From a virus, in the IMG/VR virus record IMGVR_UViG_3300042691_023285, positions 1 to 25,439 of that record: a stretch of DNA of 25,439 bases. One strand, given 5' to 3'. Positions 6,087-25,439 of this stretch are shown in pieces. Position numbers and translations under genes: made by a program. Numbering within the stretch: position 1 is the stretch's first letter; each line of letters opens with the position of its first letter. The notes beneath the pieces are model-generated. The model made no database searches. It had not been told where the DNA came from and saw only the letters and a program-made list of their open reading frames with translations.

Positions 6087-6892
6087 TAACCAAGGAAGAA
6101 TCAATGGAATTGGTGGAAATCCTCAACCGCGCCCGTAAAGCATTGGGGCAGTTCGTGGACAATACCAACGACTTCGCAATCACAGCCGACTTCAACGAGT
6201 TCCTGACCATCGCCAAGATGTTCCCCGACTTCGGCAAGGCTGAATTTACCACGGGAATCACCAATGCGTTCTACAAAAAACGGGAAGTGCAGACGCAGGC
6301 CGGAATTGATCCGAACAAAGTCCACCTCAACCCGTCCGATGTCAAGGCACAGCTTCACACGATGCTCGCAGCCAAACGAGCGCAGACCCAAGCCAACACG
6401 CCACAGCTAGAAGCACCCAAGCCCGTGAACCTGGAAGGCGAAGAATGGCTAGATGCCAACTTCGCGCAAGCATGGGCAAACAGCAAGCCTTACGGGATGT
6501 CGTTGTTTCCCCCGATTTGGTCTAAAAACGTATTCCCGTCACAATCCCAAGTCGCGGCAATCGCCAAACGCCTTGCATCAATGCCGGAGTTCCACGAAGG
6601 GCGCAAAGAAAATGCTCGTAGGATGACCTTAGATGAAATGATAAAGGATTTGAACGCGAGTATCAAGGTCGGGGGAGTTAATGAATTGTACACGTTCCTA
6701 GAGCCAAATGAGGACTATCACACGAAAGAAAGCCGTGAACGTCTGCAAGCCCGCATCGATAAGCACAATTCCACCAAGTCGAACAAGCTGAATTGGCAAG
6801 CGGAAGAAACCTACCACCGCAGCAAGTTGGTGGCGATGGTACGCACCTACGGCTACATCATGGAAGAAACAAATTGGGGCGAAGGAAAATGA
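6083..6892 (+). CDS. Hypothetical protein of replication operon
   Basis: 269 residues. The N-terminal third is helical and charged; a Gln/Ala/Pro-rich linker lies around 108-125. A second domain with W, F and P clusters (SLFPPIWSKNVFPSQSQ) follows, and a basic helical C-terminus ends it. I recognise no family. It overlaps the DUF1376-type gene by ATGA and the PP-loop gene by ATGA, so it is translated in step with both. In lambda-like phages the gene after the initiator often encodes a helicase loader, but no Walker motif is visible here, so that role is not supported by sequence. G+C is close to the window average. Confidence 0.62.
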   Translation: MITKEESMELVEILNRARKALGQFVDNTNDFAITADFNEFLTIAKMFPDFGKAEFTTGITNAFYKKREVQTQAGIDPNKVHLNPSDVKAQLHTMLAAKRAQTQANTPQLEAPKPVNLEGEEWLDANFAQAWANSKPYGMSLFPPIWSKNVFPSQSQVAAIAKRLASMPEFHEGRKENARRMTLDEMIKDLNASIKVGGVNELYTFLEPNEDYHTKESRERLQARIDKHNSTKSNKLNWQAEETYHRSKLVAMVRTYGYIMEETNWGEGK

Positions 6893-7752
6893 AAACGATG
6901 AACAGCATCAGCGGTGGCCGAACATCCGCATACATGGCAGCGCATTTGCCTGCCGACATCAATGTTTTTGCAGCCGTCTGCATGGACAACCCATTAGCTA
7001 AAATCAAGGATGCCGGGCTGCTTTCAGCTTGCCGCAAAAAGTTGGAACGTTACGATGATCGGTTCGGTGAGTTTATCGGATCTGCCGAAGACTCAAAGAC
7101 CTTTCGTGTCGTGCTTGACCTTGAGCAGATGATTGGCAAGGAAATTATTTGGGTAAGAGGCGAGTCATTTGAGGCAATGGTAAACCGAAAAAAAAGCCTG
7201 CCAAATCAGGAATGGAGGTTTTGCACAACATTTCTAAAAATCAGCCCGATTGCCGAATTTATTTTTGAAACAATCGGTGAAAAGGTCATTAACCGCCAAG
7301 GCATTAGGATAGACGAAGCCCAGCGCATCAAGGCAGAAGGACACCGGACTCAAGCTATCGACATCCAAATCGGCAATTATGCCAACGGTAATCGCAAATG
7401 GCTGAATTTTGAGTTTGCAGAAGCAGCCTATCCGCTTGTATTTGATGACGAAGGCAAGCTTGACCCGATAAAGAAAGCTGAAATCTACCAATGGGCGAAC
7501 GGCTCAGGGCTTGATTTCCCCAAAAGTTCAAACTGCCAGTTCTGCTTTCACAAATCAGTAGCAGAACTTATCGGAAACAATGCCGAAAACCCCAAAATAT
7601 TTCAAGCAGCCCGTGAAATGGAAGAATTAAGGCCAAAGGGGTCGATGAAGAAAGACTATCCAATCTCAAAAATCCAACGGCTGCAAGTGCCACCGATTCA
7701 ACTTTCATTTTTTGGCGGTGATTCTTGCGAATCCGGATTTTGTCACGACTAA
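6889..7752 (+). CDS. PP-loop protein of the PAPS reductase family
   Basis: 287 residues from the ATG at 6889, which overlaps the upstream stop as ATGA; the frame is open further upstream, but that part shadows the previous gene. The PP-loop SISGGRTSA lies at residues 6-14 and binds the phosphates of an adenine nucleotide. Further family-like features are WRFCTTFLK (C112), GIRIDEAQR (138-146), NCQFCFHKS with C216 and C219, and a Cys pair at 280 and 285. Phage members of this family are usually annotated as phosphoadenosine phosphosulfate reductase, though their true substrate is mostly unknown. The gene is AT-richer than its flanks. Proximity to a Mom-like gene suggests a part in nucleic acid modification, which is inference. 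Confidence 0.7.
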   Translation: MKTMNSISGGRTSAYMAAHLPADINVFAAVCMDNPLAKIKDAGLLSACRKKLERYDDRFGEFIGSAEDSKTFRVVLDLEQMIGKEIIWVRGESFEAMVNRKKSLPNQEWRFCTTFLKISPIAEFIFETIGEKVINRQGIRIDEAQRIKAEGHRTQAIDIQIGNYANGNRKWLNFEFAEAAYPLVFDDEGKLDPIKKAEIYQWANGSGLDFPKSSNCQFCFHKSVAELIGNNAENPKIFQAAREMEELRPKGSMKKDYPISKIQRLQVPPIQLSFFGGDSCESGFCHD

Positions 7753-7789: not shown

Positions 7790-8209
7790 ATGAGCGAAAA
7801 GGTATCAATGGCTTGGCATGAAAGTAAACTTCAAGCCTACAAAACGAAGATTCAGAGGCTAGAAAAGCGCATCGCTAACATGGCAGACCAGTACGTCAGT
7901 CAGGAACGGCTGACGGATCAATTCCGCGAAAGGTGCAACACGTACCAGGAAGAAACACGCCTCAGAATCGAGGAAGCCGAACACTACCGCAGGGAATTGC
8001 AGCGCATAACGGACATGATGCAGGCCAAAGAGCCAACCGTAGGCAGAATCTACGCCAAGTACATCACCGCGCCTAGCCGGATTGATGCCTGCGAGCGAAA
8101 GTGGATTCCAGAAGTCGGCAGCAAGGCATACGAGGACATGGAAATTGTCCCCAAAGGAGGCATCGCCAAGCCCTACTGCGAAATCGTGGAGGCTCTGAGG
8201 GTCAAATGA
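7790..8209 (+). CDS. Coiled-coil hypothetical protein upstream of mom-like gene
   Basis: 139 residues from the ATG at 7790 (MSEKVSMAWHESKL). A longer in-frame start at 7712 would overlap the PP-loop gene out of frame and is unlikely. The start has the A-rich context ACACGACAATG seen before other genes here. Residues ~12-85 form a long charged helix with heptad character (QRLEKRIANMAD, RRELQRITDMM), followed by a compact C-terminal part with GRIYAKYI and ACERKW. Unlike the genes on both sides, its G+C is ordinary. The stop overlaps the Mom-like start as ATGA. It is not a zinc finger, so it is not an obvious equivalent of the Mu translational activator Com. Confidence 0.62.
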   Translation: MSEKVSMAWHESKLQAYKTKIQRLEKRIANMADQYVSQERLTDQFRERCNTYQEETRLRIEEAEHYRRELQRITDMMQAKEPTVGRIYAKYITAPSRIDACERKWIPEVGSKAYEDMEIVPKGGIAKPYCEIVEALRVK

Positions 8210-8880
8210 AAAATTACTCAGTAAAGCGAATCGAAACTTGGGAAACCAAGGAATGGCTACTTAAAAAGCACTATGCAAGGCGAATACCGCCAATTGAACA
8301 TGCTTTTGGAGTGTTTGACGAAAACCTAATTTGCCAAGGTGTTTGCACTTTTGGAACGCCAGTAAGCCATACGCTTAGATCGGCATTTGGGGATGAATTC
8401 AAATTGTTTGAACTTAATCGGCTTGTGCTTAATGAAGGGCATGAAAAAAATCTGACTAGTTTTTTTGTAGGTCAATGCCTAAAAATGATTCCATCACCTT
8501 GCATTATTGCTAGCTATGCTGATACCTCAAAAGGACATCATGGGTTTATTTACCAAGCTACAAATTGGGTTTATACAGGCTTATCAGCACCTTTCAAGGA
8601 CTATTATATTCGTGGGATGGAGCATTTGCATAATGGAACAATCATGGATATGTCAAGAGGTCAAGAAAATAGAATTCAATGGCTGCGTGATAAGTTTGGA
8701 GATGATTTGATTATGATTGACAGACCACGAAAGCACAGGTATTTTTATTTTGTCGGTGACAAACGGCAAAAAAAACAAATGGCAAAGCTACTTCCTTATT
8801 CGGTTGAGCCTTACCCAAAAGGGGAAAATTCACGGTATGATGCGTCCTATCAGGTTGCAACACAAGGCAGACTATTCTAA
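8206..8880 (+). CDS. mom: Mom-like DNA adenine modification enzyme (GNAT fold)
   Basis: 224 residues from the ATG at 8206. It matches the pattern of the phage Mu Mom family: FELNRLVLNEG, then NLTSFFVGQCLKMI, then IIASYADTSKGHHGFIYQATN with NWVYTG shortly after. Mom converts adenine in DNA to N6-methylcarbamoyl-adenine and protects phage DNA from many restriction enzymes. The C-terminal part carries basic stretches (RPRKHRYFYFVGDKRQKKQ) suited to DNA contact. The gene is strikingly AT-rich compared with TerS downstream, as expected for a recently acquired gene. It is coupled to the coiled-coil gene by ATGA and its stop overlaps the next start as TAATG. Known Mom genes are tightly controlled, and the coupling may serve this. 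Confidence 0.8.
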   Translation: MKNYSVKRIETWETKEWLLKKHYARRIPPIEHAFGVFDENLICQGVCTFGTPVSHTLRSAFGDEFKLFELNRLVLNEGHEKNLTSFFVGQCLKMIPSPCIIASYADTSKGHHGFIYQATNWVYTGLSAPFKDYYIRGMEHLHNGTIMDMSRGQENRIQWLRDKFGDDLIMIDRPRKHRYFYFVGDKRQKKQMAKLLPYSVEPYPKGENSRYDASYQVATQGRLF

Positions 8881-9168: not shown

Positions 9169-9564
9169 ATGGAAATCGACAAAATTCAACGTCTTAAAAG
9201 ATTCGAGCCGAAGAAAGCGGCAATGTTGCAAGCACTAGAAACAAATCTAGGCAATGTCACCGTTTCCGCACCGTTGGCAGGCATCGAGCGCACTACGCAC
9301 TACGTATGGATGAAGGAAGACCCCGACTACGCGGAAGCGGTTAATGAGTTGAAAAACGTGGCGGTGGACTTCTACGAAAAAGCCCTGCACGAACGCATCA
9401 AGGCAGGAAGCGATGCAGCCGTCATCTTCGCCCTGAAAACCCAAGGCCGCAGCCGTGGGTGGCAGGAAAGGCAGGAACTTAAGGTCGAGCATAACTATTC
9501 GGAACTCAGCGATGAGGAAATCGCAGCCGAAATTGCCAAGCGCACGCAGCCGGGGGAAGAGTGA
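9169..9564 (+). CDS. Terminase small subunit
   Basis: 131 residues. The helix-turn-helix-like part GNVTVSAPLAGIERTTHYVWM followed by EDPDYAEAVNE (about residues 28-61) has the W-x-x-x-D-P-x-[FY] signature of phage TerS DNA-binding domains. A helical middle with AAVIFALKTQGRSRGW (84-99) and an acidic C-terminus follow; the latter may contact TerL. TerS recognises the packaging site and loads the large subunit. The gene is preceded by its own promoter and its stop overlaps the GTG start of TerL (GTGA), the usual TerS-TerL coupling. Confidence 0.75.
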   Translation: MEIDKIQRLKRFEPKKAAMLQALETNLGNVTVSAPLAGIERTTHYVWMKEDPDYAEAVNELKNVAVDFYEKALHERIKAGSDAAVIFALKTQGRSRGWQERQELKVEHNYSELSDEEIAAEIAKRTQPGEE

Positions 9565-11597
9565 ACCGCACCGAAATGATTCAGTTGCTCGCTTTGCTTG
9601 ACGAGCAGGAGCGAAGAAAACCGTGTTGGTTGCCCATGCGGTCAGACCCCAACCGTCCCGACATCGTGCTTCCTCAGGGCATGGCGTTTGACACAAAGGC
9701 ATCAATTGTAGGATTTGGCGGTTCTGCAGGAGGTGGGAAAGGTCTTGCGCTTGACACGCCAATACCTACGCCTGCAGGATGGACTACAATGGGCAATCTT
9801 CAGGTAGGTGACTTTGTATTCGATGAGCAAGGCAAACCCTGCAAGGTCGTTTATACCTCAGAAATCAATAACCGCCCATGCTACCGCCTTACTTTCGATG
9901 ACGGCTCTACCATCGTGGCGGATAACGTGCATCGGTGGCATACATTCAGTGATGAAGAGCCAACCTTCAAAGTCCGCGAAACGTCCGAATTGATAGGCGG
10001 TAAGTGGAAAATAACCCGACCCCTGCAAATGGATGTTGTGCGGATCAATTCCATCAAGCCAGTTAAAAGCGTTCCGACTAGGTGCATTCAGGTCGATTCA
10101 GAAAGTCACCTATTCCTTGCCGGAAATGGCTTGATACCAACGCACAACACGCAGGTCATCATCGGCAAGATGCTGCTTCAAGCTGACAACGGCATCATTT
10201 ACAGGAAGCACTACGCGGATTTTGAAGGCATCGAGCGTGCATTCACCTCAATCATCGGCAGCAAGTATATCAAGCGAGGCACGACTTATATGGTAGAGCC
10301 TCCTACGGGTGACAGGAAGATAACGGCAAAGCGGATTCTTTTCGGGTCGCTTGACAATGAGGCAAAGGACAGGGAAAAGTACCAAGGCCGCGACTACGCC
10401 TTCATTGCCTTTGATGAGGTCACGCAGATGAGCCGCGAAACCGTTGAATACCTGATGCAATGGAATCGCTCGGCTGACAAGTCGCAGCAATGCCAAGTAC
10501 TGATGACGTTCAACCCACCGACACGCCCCGAAGGGCTTTGGGTCAAGGATTATTTCGCCCCGTGGCTCAACAAGTCGCATCATTTGTACGGAAAGGTAGA
10601 AAGCGGTCAGGTCTTGCACAGGGTCGCAATACCAACAGCAGACGGGCAAAGTTCTACCTTTCATTATTTCGATGAGGCGCAAATCGTGACCCACAACCCC
10701 GTGACGGGCGCGGAACTCAAACGCTCACTACCGACCCGATCAATCACCTTCATCCGGTCACGCCTTAGCGACAACCTTTACTTGCGCGACACCGACTACG
10801 AGGCCGCCTTGCTAGGTTCATCCGACCCGAACATGGCTAGGGTCATGCTTGACGGTGACTTCGATGTTGATTTCAAGGACGGCATTCTCAGCGTGTTCAA
10901 GCCGCAGCATTGGCAGGTATCAATCGAGCGTTTCAAGCGGTTGGAGCAGTTGCCTACGGGCGTGCCTGATGTCGTTTCCATTGACGCAGCCAAGGGCGGT
11001 GACGATGATATGGTCGTGCAGCTAGGATATCGTGTGGTTGAGCAAGGGCAGCCGACCAAGTACATCTATCCGCAGGCTCTCAAGGTCAGGGGTGGTCTTG
11101 TCAGCACCCACGAACTGCAATGGCAATGGATCATAGCCAACGTGCCGCACCTCCTGGATGCGCGGTTGTTCGTTATCGACATTGTGGGCGGTGCAGGGGA
11201 AACGCTAGCAGCGTACATCGAAAACGAGGTGCAAGCACGCCACGGCAGGAAGAAACACGTTATCCGGTTCAAAGGTGGGGCTAATTCTAACTGGCGATCA
11301 ATTCACGATTGGGACACGGGAAAATCAAGCGTAGGCGCAATGTCCTACGCCAACGACATCACCGCAGCATGGCACACGGCATCGGCAGCACAGCAGCACA
11401 CCGAAACGTGCATCTTCCCCGATGATGAATTGCAGCGGCAATGCCTGAGCCGGAACTTTCAAAACACGGACGCGAATTACAAACTTGAGCCGAAGGAGCG
11501 GTTCTCCCAACGCCTAGGACGCAGCCCCGACAACGCAGACGCATACTGCATGGCCGCAATCGGATTGCATCGCTACCTCAACACCTTCGGGCGGTAA
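9561..11597 (+). CDS. terL: Terminase large subunit interrupted by a mini-intein
   Basis: 678 residues from a GTG start. The packaging ATPase/nuclease cuts concatemers and pumps DNA through the portal. Walker A reads GGSAGGGK at 53-60, is broken by the intein at 61-196, and continues with T197-QVIIGK; splicing would restore GGSAGGGKT and give 542 residues, normal for TerL. Walker B is FIAFDEV with D284-E285. The nuclease part shows SIDAAKGGDDD (D475), FVIDIVGG (D540) and a late acidic residue in DNADAYCMA (D660). Because the intein splits the ATP-binding loop between Lys and Thr, the precursor should be inactive for packaging. The next genes are unrelated small ones instead of the portal. Confidence 0.88.
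   Translation: MNRTEMIQLLALLDEQERRKPCWLPMRSDPNRPDIVLPQGMAFDTKASIVGFGGSAGGGKGLALDTPIPTPAGWTTMGNLQVGDFVFDEQGKPCKVVYTSEINNRPCYRLTFDDGSTIVADNVHRWHTFSDEEPTFKVRETSELIGGKWKITRPLQMDVVRINSIKPVKSVPTRCIQVDSESHLFLAGNGLIPTHNTQVIIGKMLLQADNGIIYRKHYADFEGIERAFTSIIGSKYIKRGTTYMVEPPTGDRKITAKRILFGSLDNEAKDREKYQGRDYAFIAFDEVTQMSRETVEYLMQWNRSADKSQQCQVLMTFNPPTRPEGLWVKDYFAPWLNKSHHLYGKVESGQVLHRVAIPTADGQSSTFHYFDEAQIVTHNPVTGAELKRSLPTRSITFIRSRLSDNLYLRDTDYEAALLGSSDPNMARVMLDGDFDVDFKDGILSVFKPQHWQVSIERFKRLEQLPTGVPDVVSIDAAKGGDDDMVVQLGYRVVEQGQPTKYIYPQALKVRGGLVSTHELQWQWIIANVPHLLDARLFVIDIVGGAGETLAAYIENEVQARHGRKKHVIRFKGGANSNWRSIHDWDTGKSSVGAMSYANDITAAWHTASAAQQHTETCIFPDDELQRQCLSRNFQNTDANYKLEPKERFSQRLGRSPDNADAYCMAAIGLHRYLNTFGR
9741..10148 (+). 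other. Class 3 mini-intein in terL Walker A
   Basis: 136 residues (G61-N196 of the ORF). Block A is LALDTPIPTPAGW with Gly, not Cys or Ser, at position 1. Block B ends DNVHRWHT, giving H64 and W66 of the intein (block B positions 10 and 12). Block F is TRCIQVDSESHLFLAG with C115. Block G is LIPTHN followed by Thr, giving T134, H135 and N136. The Trp-Cys-Thr set is the signature of class 3 inteins, which use the block F Cys as first nucleophile. Only about 40 residues separate blocks B and F, so there is no homing endonuclease. Confidence 0.88.
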
Positions 11598-24896: not shown

Positions 24897-25313
24897 TCAT
24901 ACGACCTCCCCTATTTTTGACTTGATGACGCTGCTGATTTCATAAGGCACTAGCCATTCTTTAAGATGGTCGCGTGTGCGCTCTCCGACTTCGTGGTCGT
25001 CATTGGCGTTGACGAGTAGGTACATTGCCACCTTCTTCGGTTTCTCGCCTTCTTCGCTTGCTTCATACTCGACTTTCACCTTCCAAAATTGATCGGTGTC
25101 ACCGTACATGACGCATTCTTCAATCTTCGACCTGGAAGCCGCGAACATGGCTAGTTCTTTGATGCTGTCGTTGCCCTCGTAGTGCTGCAAGACTTTCGCC
25201 TCGCACTCGGTGAACGTCATTGCATCCACTAGCAGATGCTCCGTTGCAGGCTTGATAAGCCCGTTGTCTGACATCGCCAAGCCCTTGGCCTTGGCTTCGA
25301 AATATGCTTTCAT
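24897..25313 (-). CDS. DUF4494-like protein
   Basis: 138 residues from MKAYFEAKAKGL at 25313; a more distant in-frame start at 25376 would overlap the upstream gene. Features I associate with DUF4494 are EHLLVDAMTFTECEAKVLQH, a W-x-K-V-K-V segment (FWKVKVEYEASEEGEKPKK) and VAMYLLVNAND, with a C-terminal YEISSVIKSKIGEVV. This family of unknown function occurs in Bacteroidota and their phages. The two similar halves (F-x-K ... LVDA and W-K-V-K ... LVNA) suggest an internal duplication. It is followed by a minus-strand terminator. Confidence 0.6.
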   Translation of the reverse strand: MKAYFEAKAKGLAMSDNGLIKPATEHLLVDAMTFTECEAKVLQHYEGNDSIKELAMFAASRSKIEECVMYGDTDQFWKVKVEYEASEEGEKPKKVAMYLLVNANDDHEVGERTRDHLKEWLVPYEISSVIKSKIGEVV

Positions 25314-25323
25314 GTTTCTGTGA

Positions 25324-25439
25324 TTAGTATTTGAGGCTGACTTTTTCACGCCTGCGGAAGTTGTAAATATCCTCAATCAAGGTGATATATTGCTCCTTGT
25401 CGCTGCAATTCGTCAGCGCGGACGGATTCAACTCTAGCT
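25324..25439 (-). CDS. C-terminal end of a hypothetical protein (partial)
   Basis: An open frame enters from the right edge and ends at TAA 25326-25324. The visible 37 residues (ending YNFRRREKVSLKY) are charged and helical. The stop lies ten bases before the DUF4494-like ATG, so both are probably in one operon. Too little is visible to name it. Confidence 0.5.
   Translation of the reverse strand, partial: LELNPSALTNCSDKEQYITLIEDIYNFRRREKVSLKY

Follow-up and report, generated by a model that had tools for sequence, protein, structure and literature searches.

The terminase large subunit of a likely Bacteroidota phage is split at Walker A by a probable Gly1 class 3 mini-intein

Introduction

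Class 3 inteins are defined by a WCT triplet at positions B:12, F:4 and G:5 together with the lack of a nucleophile at A:1 (PMC3196547, PMC5050341). The roles of the catalytic triad and of the WCT residues, and with them the splicing mechanism, have been worked out for Mch DnaB1 (PMC7664689), splicing of Msm DnaB-1 has been studied experimentally (PMC5222942, PMC6195587), and class 3 mini-inteins of comparable size are known to splice (PMC5222942). In mycobacteriophages, the terminase large subunit (TerL) hosts inteins more often than any other protein, and TerL1-c, -d and -e are reported as class 3 (PMC5050341). Intein-bearing TerLs are also on record for crAss-like phages, whose hosts are Bacteroidetes (PMC7886860).

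Here we analyzed a 25,439-nucleotide stretch of phage DNA (IMG/VR record IMGVR_UViG_3300042691_023285), hereafter the window. Sequence comparison and structure modelling lead us to conclude, with high confidence, that a class 3 mini-intein without an endonuclease domain, predicted from its class to be spliced out, separates Lys from Thr in the Walker A motif of its TerL.

An insert that splits the TerL Walker A motif

The TerL open reading frame (9561-11597, plus strand) starts with GTG and remains open over 678 codons. Its product matched Terminase_6N (PF03237) and Terminase_3 (PF04466) above the Pfam cut-offs, as well as phrog_2 (8.5e-24) and phrog_979 in PHROGs, and it is directly preceded on its 5′ side by a TerS-like gene (9169-9564, phrog_4044). 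The host protein is a Terminase_6N-like TerL combining a terminase ATPase, Walker A included, with a nuclease. Three parts were delineated.

9561-9740, plus strand: TerL N-extein, residues 1-60, ending in ...GFGGSAGGGK (alignment with empty-site TerLs)
9741-10148, plus strand: class 3 mini-intein, 136 residues, Gly1 to Asn136 (sequence, profile and fold matches)
10149-11597, plus strand: TerL C-extein, beginning with Thr+1 (the Walker A Thr, 10149-10151), followed by the remaining ATPase and the nuclease, stop included (Pfam and PHROG matches)

The Walker A motif reads GFGGSAGGGK60, 136 inserted residues, then T197QVIIGKMLL, which places the insert exactly between Lys60 and Thr197 (GGSAGGGK/T, where the slash marks the insertion point). 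In three TerLs with blastp matches to the exteins the site is uninterrupted, reading YGGAAGGGKT in L028 (Bordetella phage BPP-1) and L029, and YGGGAGGGKT in L031. Because these homologous TerLs carry the same motif without interruption, the boundaries at 9741 and 10148 are exact. The open reading frame and the empty-site TerLs bear out the original prediction that an insertion at 9741-10148 lies in the TerL Walker A loop and separates Lys from Thr in the P-loop. Insert and TerL are not strongly different in GC content.

Class 3 signature and fold

The insert is in frame, devoid of stop codons and encodes 136 residues (GLALDTPIPTP...LIPTHN), within which the following positions were assigned.

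9741-9743, plus strand: Gly1, non-nucleophilic, intein position 1 (translation)
9879-9881, plus strand: Cys47, equivalent of Msm DnaB1 Cys48, the partner in a reported redox disulfide (alignment)
9921-9938, plus strand: block B, with Asp61 (B:7), His64 (B:10) and Trp66 (B:12; 9936-9938) (aligned with 6BS8 and 6RIX)
10083-10085, plus strand: Cys115 (F:4), predicted initiating nucleophile (alignment)
10140-10148, plus strand: block G, with Thr134 (G:5; 10140-10142), His135 (G:6) and Asn136 (G:7) (translation and TIGR01443)

Gly1 leaves position 1 without Cys, Ser or Thr, as in class 3 inteins, and alignment with 6BS8 and 6RIX gives a complete WCT triplet (Trp66, Cys115 and Thr134), accompanied by His64 at B:10, the terminal His135-Asn136 and Thr+1. 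The Trp, Cys, Thr and His-Asn positions are those originally claimed, and the numbering given with them (C115, 136 residues, about 542 residues after splicing) is correct. At 136 residues, with no homing endonuclease between blocks B and F, the insert is a mini-intein. Relatives of at least 300 residues carry a LAGLIDADG-type block (LLQGLMDTDG) that is absent from the window insert, in agreement with the earlier statement that no endonuclease is left, and no endonuclease domain was named by hmmscan in the intein or in the other window gene products searched.

The best phmmer matches in the PDB were Mch DnaB1 (6RIX, 6RIY) and Msm DnaB1 (6BS8), which align over residues 2-136 with E-values from 1.7e-33 to 2.8e-32. 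Far weaker matches were obtained for the class 1 intein gp41-1 (6QAZ, 1.2e-5) and for its variant with a grafted WCT triplet (6RIZ, 8e-8). NCBIfam TIGR01443 (intein C-terminus) was above its cut-off on the insert. The Pfam intein and Hint models stayed below threshold, which we attribute to the coverage of these models. An AlphaFold model covering the insert plus ten flanking residues of either extein reached a mean pLDDT of 90.6, and the seven top Foldseek hits of this model were all chains of 6RIX, 6RIY and 6BS8 (43-46% identity, target TM-score of about 0.9, 1.7e-13), so that its HINT fold is closest to class 3 structures. Taken together, the phmmer value of 1.7e-33, the TIGR01443 match and the Foldseek value exclude a chance match.

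Proposed splicing route and alternatives

By analogy with its class, Cys115 would attack the Lys60-Gly1 bond to form the block F branched intermediate, from which the N-extein would be transferred to Thr+1. Cyclization of Asn136, assisted by His135, and an acyl shift would then yield a ligated TerL of 542 residues with an intact P-loop (GGSAGGGKT). Since ATPase activity requires both P-loop residues that flank the insert, TerL is expected to be dead as an ATPase in its unspliced form of 678 residues, by analogy with the P-loop intein of RadA to which PMC6195587 refers.

A quite different outcome would be an insert that no longer splices, in a gene that is either a pseudogene or encodes a TerL working with the domain retained. 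Decayed class 3 inteins do exist, as illustrated by Arth_1007, which has broken catalytic residues and is inactive (PMC3196547). In the window intein, however, every catalytic residue and both splice junctions are intact, the 678 codons are still open in the TerL frame, and the motor protein whose Walker A motif is interrupted is an essential one; we therefore consider a dead intein very improbable. Reassignment to class 1 with a misplaced start, or to class 2, is harder still to defend and strikes us as barely credible. The lack of a nucleophile at position 1 is a property shared with class 2, yet class 3 is indicated by the WCT triplet, by Cys at F:4 and by Asp at B:7, the best sequence and fold matches belong to that class, and a shifted start would break the exact K/T junction defined by the empty-site TerLs. 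We thus retain a class 3 mini-intein that would be spliced from TerL, the class originally proposed, given that all defining sequence features are present and that the solved structures closest to it belong to class 3.

Relatives and position 1

A tblastn search with the 136 residues retrieved 487 isolate-phage records, all below 60% identity and many annotated as TerL. In IMG/VR, pattern scans located GK before a GLALDTP-type start in 21 contigs and before an ALALDTP-type start in at least 120. From all fetched loci, the window included, 129 inserts were extracted; one of them (L063) had been mis-cut at a chance SN within an endonuclease-bearing intein and was left out, giving a set of 128 (127 plus the window).

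All 128 inteins, most of which lie in TerL-like open reading frames, have a complete WCT triplet and Thr or Ser at +1. The two counts that follow are biased by the pattern scans, both of which required GK plus Ala or Gly: the junction was GK/T or GK/S in 124 of the 128, and position 1 was Ala in 103 of the 129 inserts, Gly in 22 (the window and 21 others) and Cys, Pro, Asp or Arg in one each. GK/T or GK/S was still the commonest junction among loci found through protein similarity alone (L003-L014). This residue is freely variable in isolate phages as well, being Leu in L030, Pro in L021, Asp in L025 and Arg in L026. Gly1 thus fits a class without constraint at this position. A tree of 121 rows placed the window in a group of 18, of which 17 have Gly1 (SH-aLRT 91), and the Gly/Ala label required four changes; this tree is built on 110 columns with few firm forks and was used for broad grouping only. 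The original prediction had singled out Gly1: the residue is indeed there, but it is not special, as 21 other inteins share it and most of them form one lineage with the window.

Several loci retrieved along the way merit mention in their own right. The TerL intein of Acidovorax phage ACF1 (L020, MZ547449.1) has a full WCT triplet yet Cys1, a mixture of class 1 and class 3 features. In IMGVR_UViG_3300028888_000260 (L002:3001-3480), a 160-residue Gly1 class 3 mini-intein splits DYK/T in a 458-residue open reading frame that, by eye, resembles a PD-(D/E)XK nuclease, suggesting that class 3 inteins may interrupt a nuclease active site too. The same class 3 intein type occurs at Walker A GK/S of cellular helicases, in an Actinomycetota DnaB (L013), which has an apparent second intein further downstream, and in a helicase-like protein of Ktedonobacterales (L014). 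Finally, the product name "DarB-like antirestriction" given to the intein-bearing TerL of L030 (OP947166.1) and to other INPHARED matches is apparently spurious.

Probable endonuclease loss and persistence

Within the same TerL family, five loci (L032, L039, L042, L045 and L046) have Gly1 inteins of 364-373 residues at the same site with the endonuclease block LLQGLMDTDG, and L050 has a 151-residue Gly1 mini-intein that is 49% identical to that of the window. Such relatives suggest that the ancestor was an endonuclease-bearing homing intein that invaded GK/T or GK/S of phage P-loop ATPases and whose endonuclease was later lost. Thirteen of the 128 inteins are shorter than 180 residues and free of endonuclease, and the mini/full label changed 13 times on the tree for these 13 minis, which, within the weak resolution of the tree, points to repeated independent losses and not to a founding mini-intein lineage. 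As TerL would be restored only by exact deletion, the intein presumably persists after losing its endonuclease. The viral contigs searched held nothing close to the C-extein, nor did isolate phages yield a close relative when searched with the portal and capsid region.

A possible redox link

In Msm DnaB1, oxidation produces a Cys48-Cys118 disulfide that halts splicing (PMC6195587). The window intein has both cysteines, Cys47 and Cys115 aligning with Msm Cys48 and Cys118. Although Cys48 was termed non-conserved by the authors of that study (PMC6195587), a Cys occupies the Cys47-equivalent position in 114 of the 128 class 3-type inteins of our retrieved set, window included; we found no earlier description of this wide conservation in the cited class 3 literature.

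A regulatory role of the TerL intein, such as the timing of packaging originally suggested, is conceivable but speculative. Specifically, the intein could double as a redox-gated packaging switch, a Cys47-Cys115 disulfide stopping splicing and holding TerL in an inactive form until reducing conditions return in the cell. The mechanism demonstrated for Msm DnaB1 (PMC6195587) and the recurrence of the cysteine in phage-type inteins speak for it. Against it, all C48 mutants of Msm DnaB1 are inactive (PMC6195587), so that conservation may be structural or catalytic and not regulatory, and an additional Cys34 in the window intein could change the redox chemistry. On balance we judge such a switch unlikely. 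The wider idea, that phage class 3 P-loop inteins share the cysteine pair as a tie between packaging and the redox state of the host and were kept as post-translational timers or sensors after endonuclease loss, seems to us slightly more doubtful again. The conservation of the redox-partner cysteine across phage class 3 inteins nonetheless makes regulated packaging directly testable.

Host and neighboring genes

The host is likely a member of the Bacteroidota, as first proposed: a DUF4494 protein (24897-25376, minus strand) had a match in Bacteroides only among 14 control genomes. Matches to the Bacteroidota promoter pattern TTTG-N15-24-TANNTTTG occurred in the window at about chance frequency (2 seen against 1.05 expected), and TANNTTTG alone was only mildly enriched (20 against 12.9 expected); neither was relied upon. 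Upstream of TerL, the window encodes a Mom-family protein (8101-8877, plus strand; PF25680, E-value 2.1e-35), Mom being a DNA-modification function known from phage Mu, and, shortly upstream of this gene, a phosphoadenosine phosphosulfate reductase-like protein (6793-7752, plus strand; phrog_424, 2.5e-24).

Comparison with known systems

The window intein is not new in kind, as both P-loop Lys/Thr inteins of TerL and class 3 phage inteins have already been published. Its closest solved counterparts, Msm DnaB-1 and Mch DnaB1 (6BS8, 6RIX and 6RIY), share with it the WCT triplet, the DxxH block B, the PTHN end and the same fold, and align over its full length. They reside in DnaB and not in TerL, are slightly larger (139 and 145 residues against 136), and differ from it by its Gly1 and at the level of overall sequence, identity being 43-46% in structural alignments. 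With Msm DnaB-1 in particular, it has in common the P-loop insertion (PMC6195587) and the redox-partner cysteine (Cys47 and Cys48, respectively), whereas the +1 residue is Thr in the window and Ser in Msm DnaB-1. The mycobacteriophage TerL1-a intein likewise separates Lys from Thr in a TerL Walker A motif, although its host belongs to another TerL family, terminase_1 (PMC5050341). The Gly1 TerL inteins from IMG/VR described above have in common with it the TerL family (blastp of exteins), the GK/G1 junction and the WCT triplet, all as in the window; L050 differs by a longer linker and the other five by the LAGLIDADG-type endonuclease that they retain.

To these systems the window adds a compact mini-intein of class 3 (136 residues, Gly1) whose phage probably infects Bacteroidota. 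The retrieved set shows that class 3 inteins at GK/T or GK/S of TerL-like open reading frames are common in uncultivated phages. Class 3 has few representatives among engineering tools, and compact natural examples are of use.
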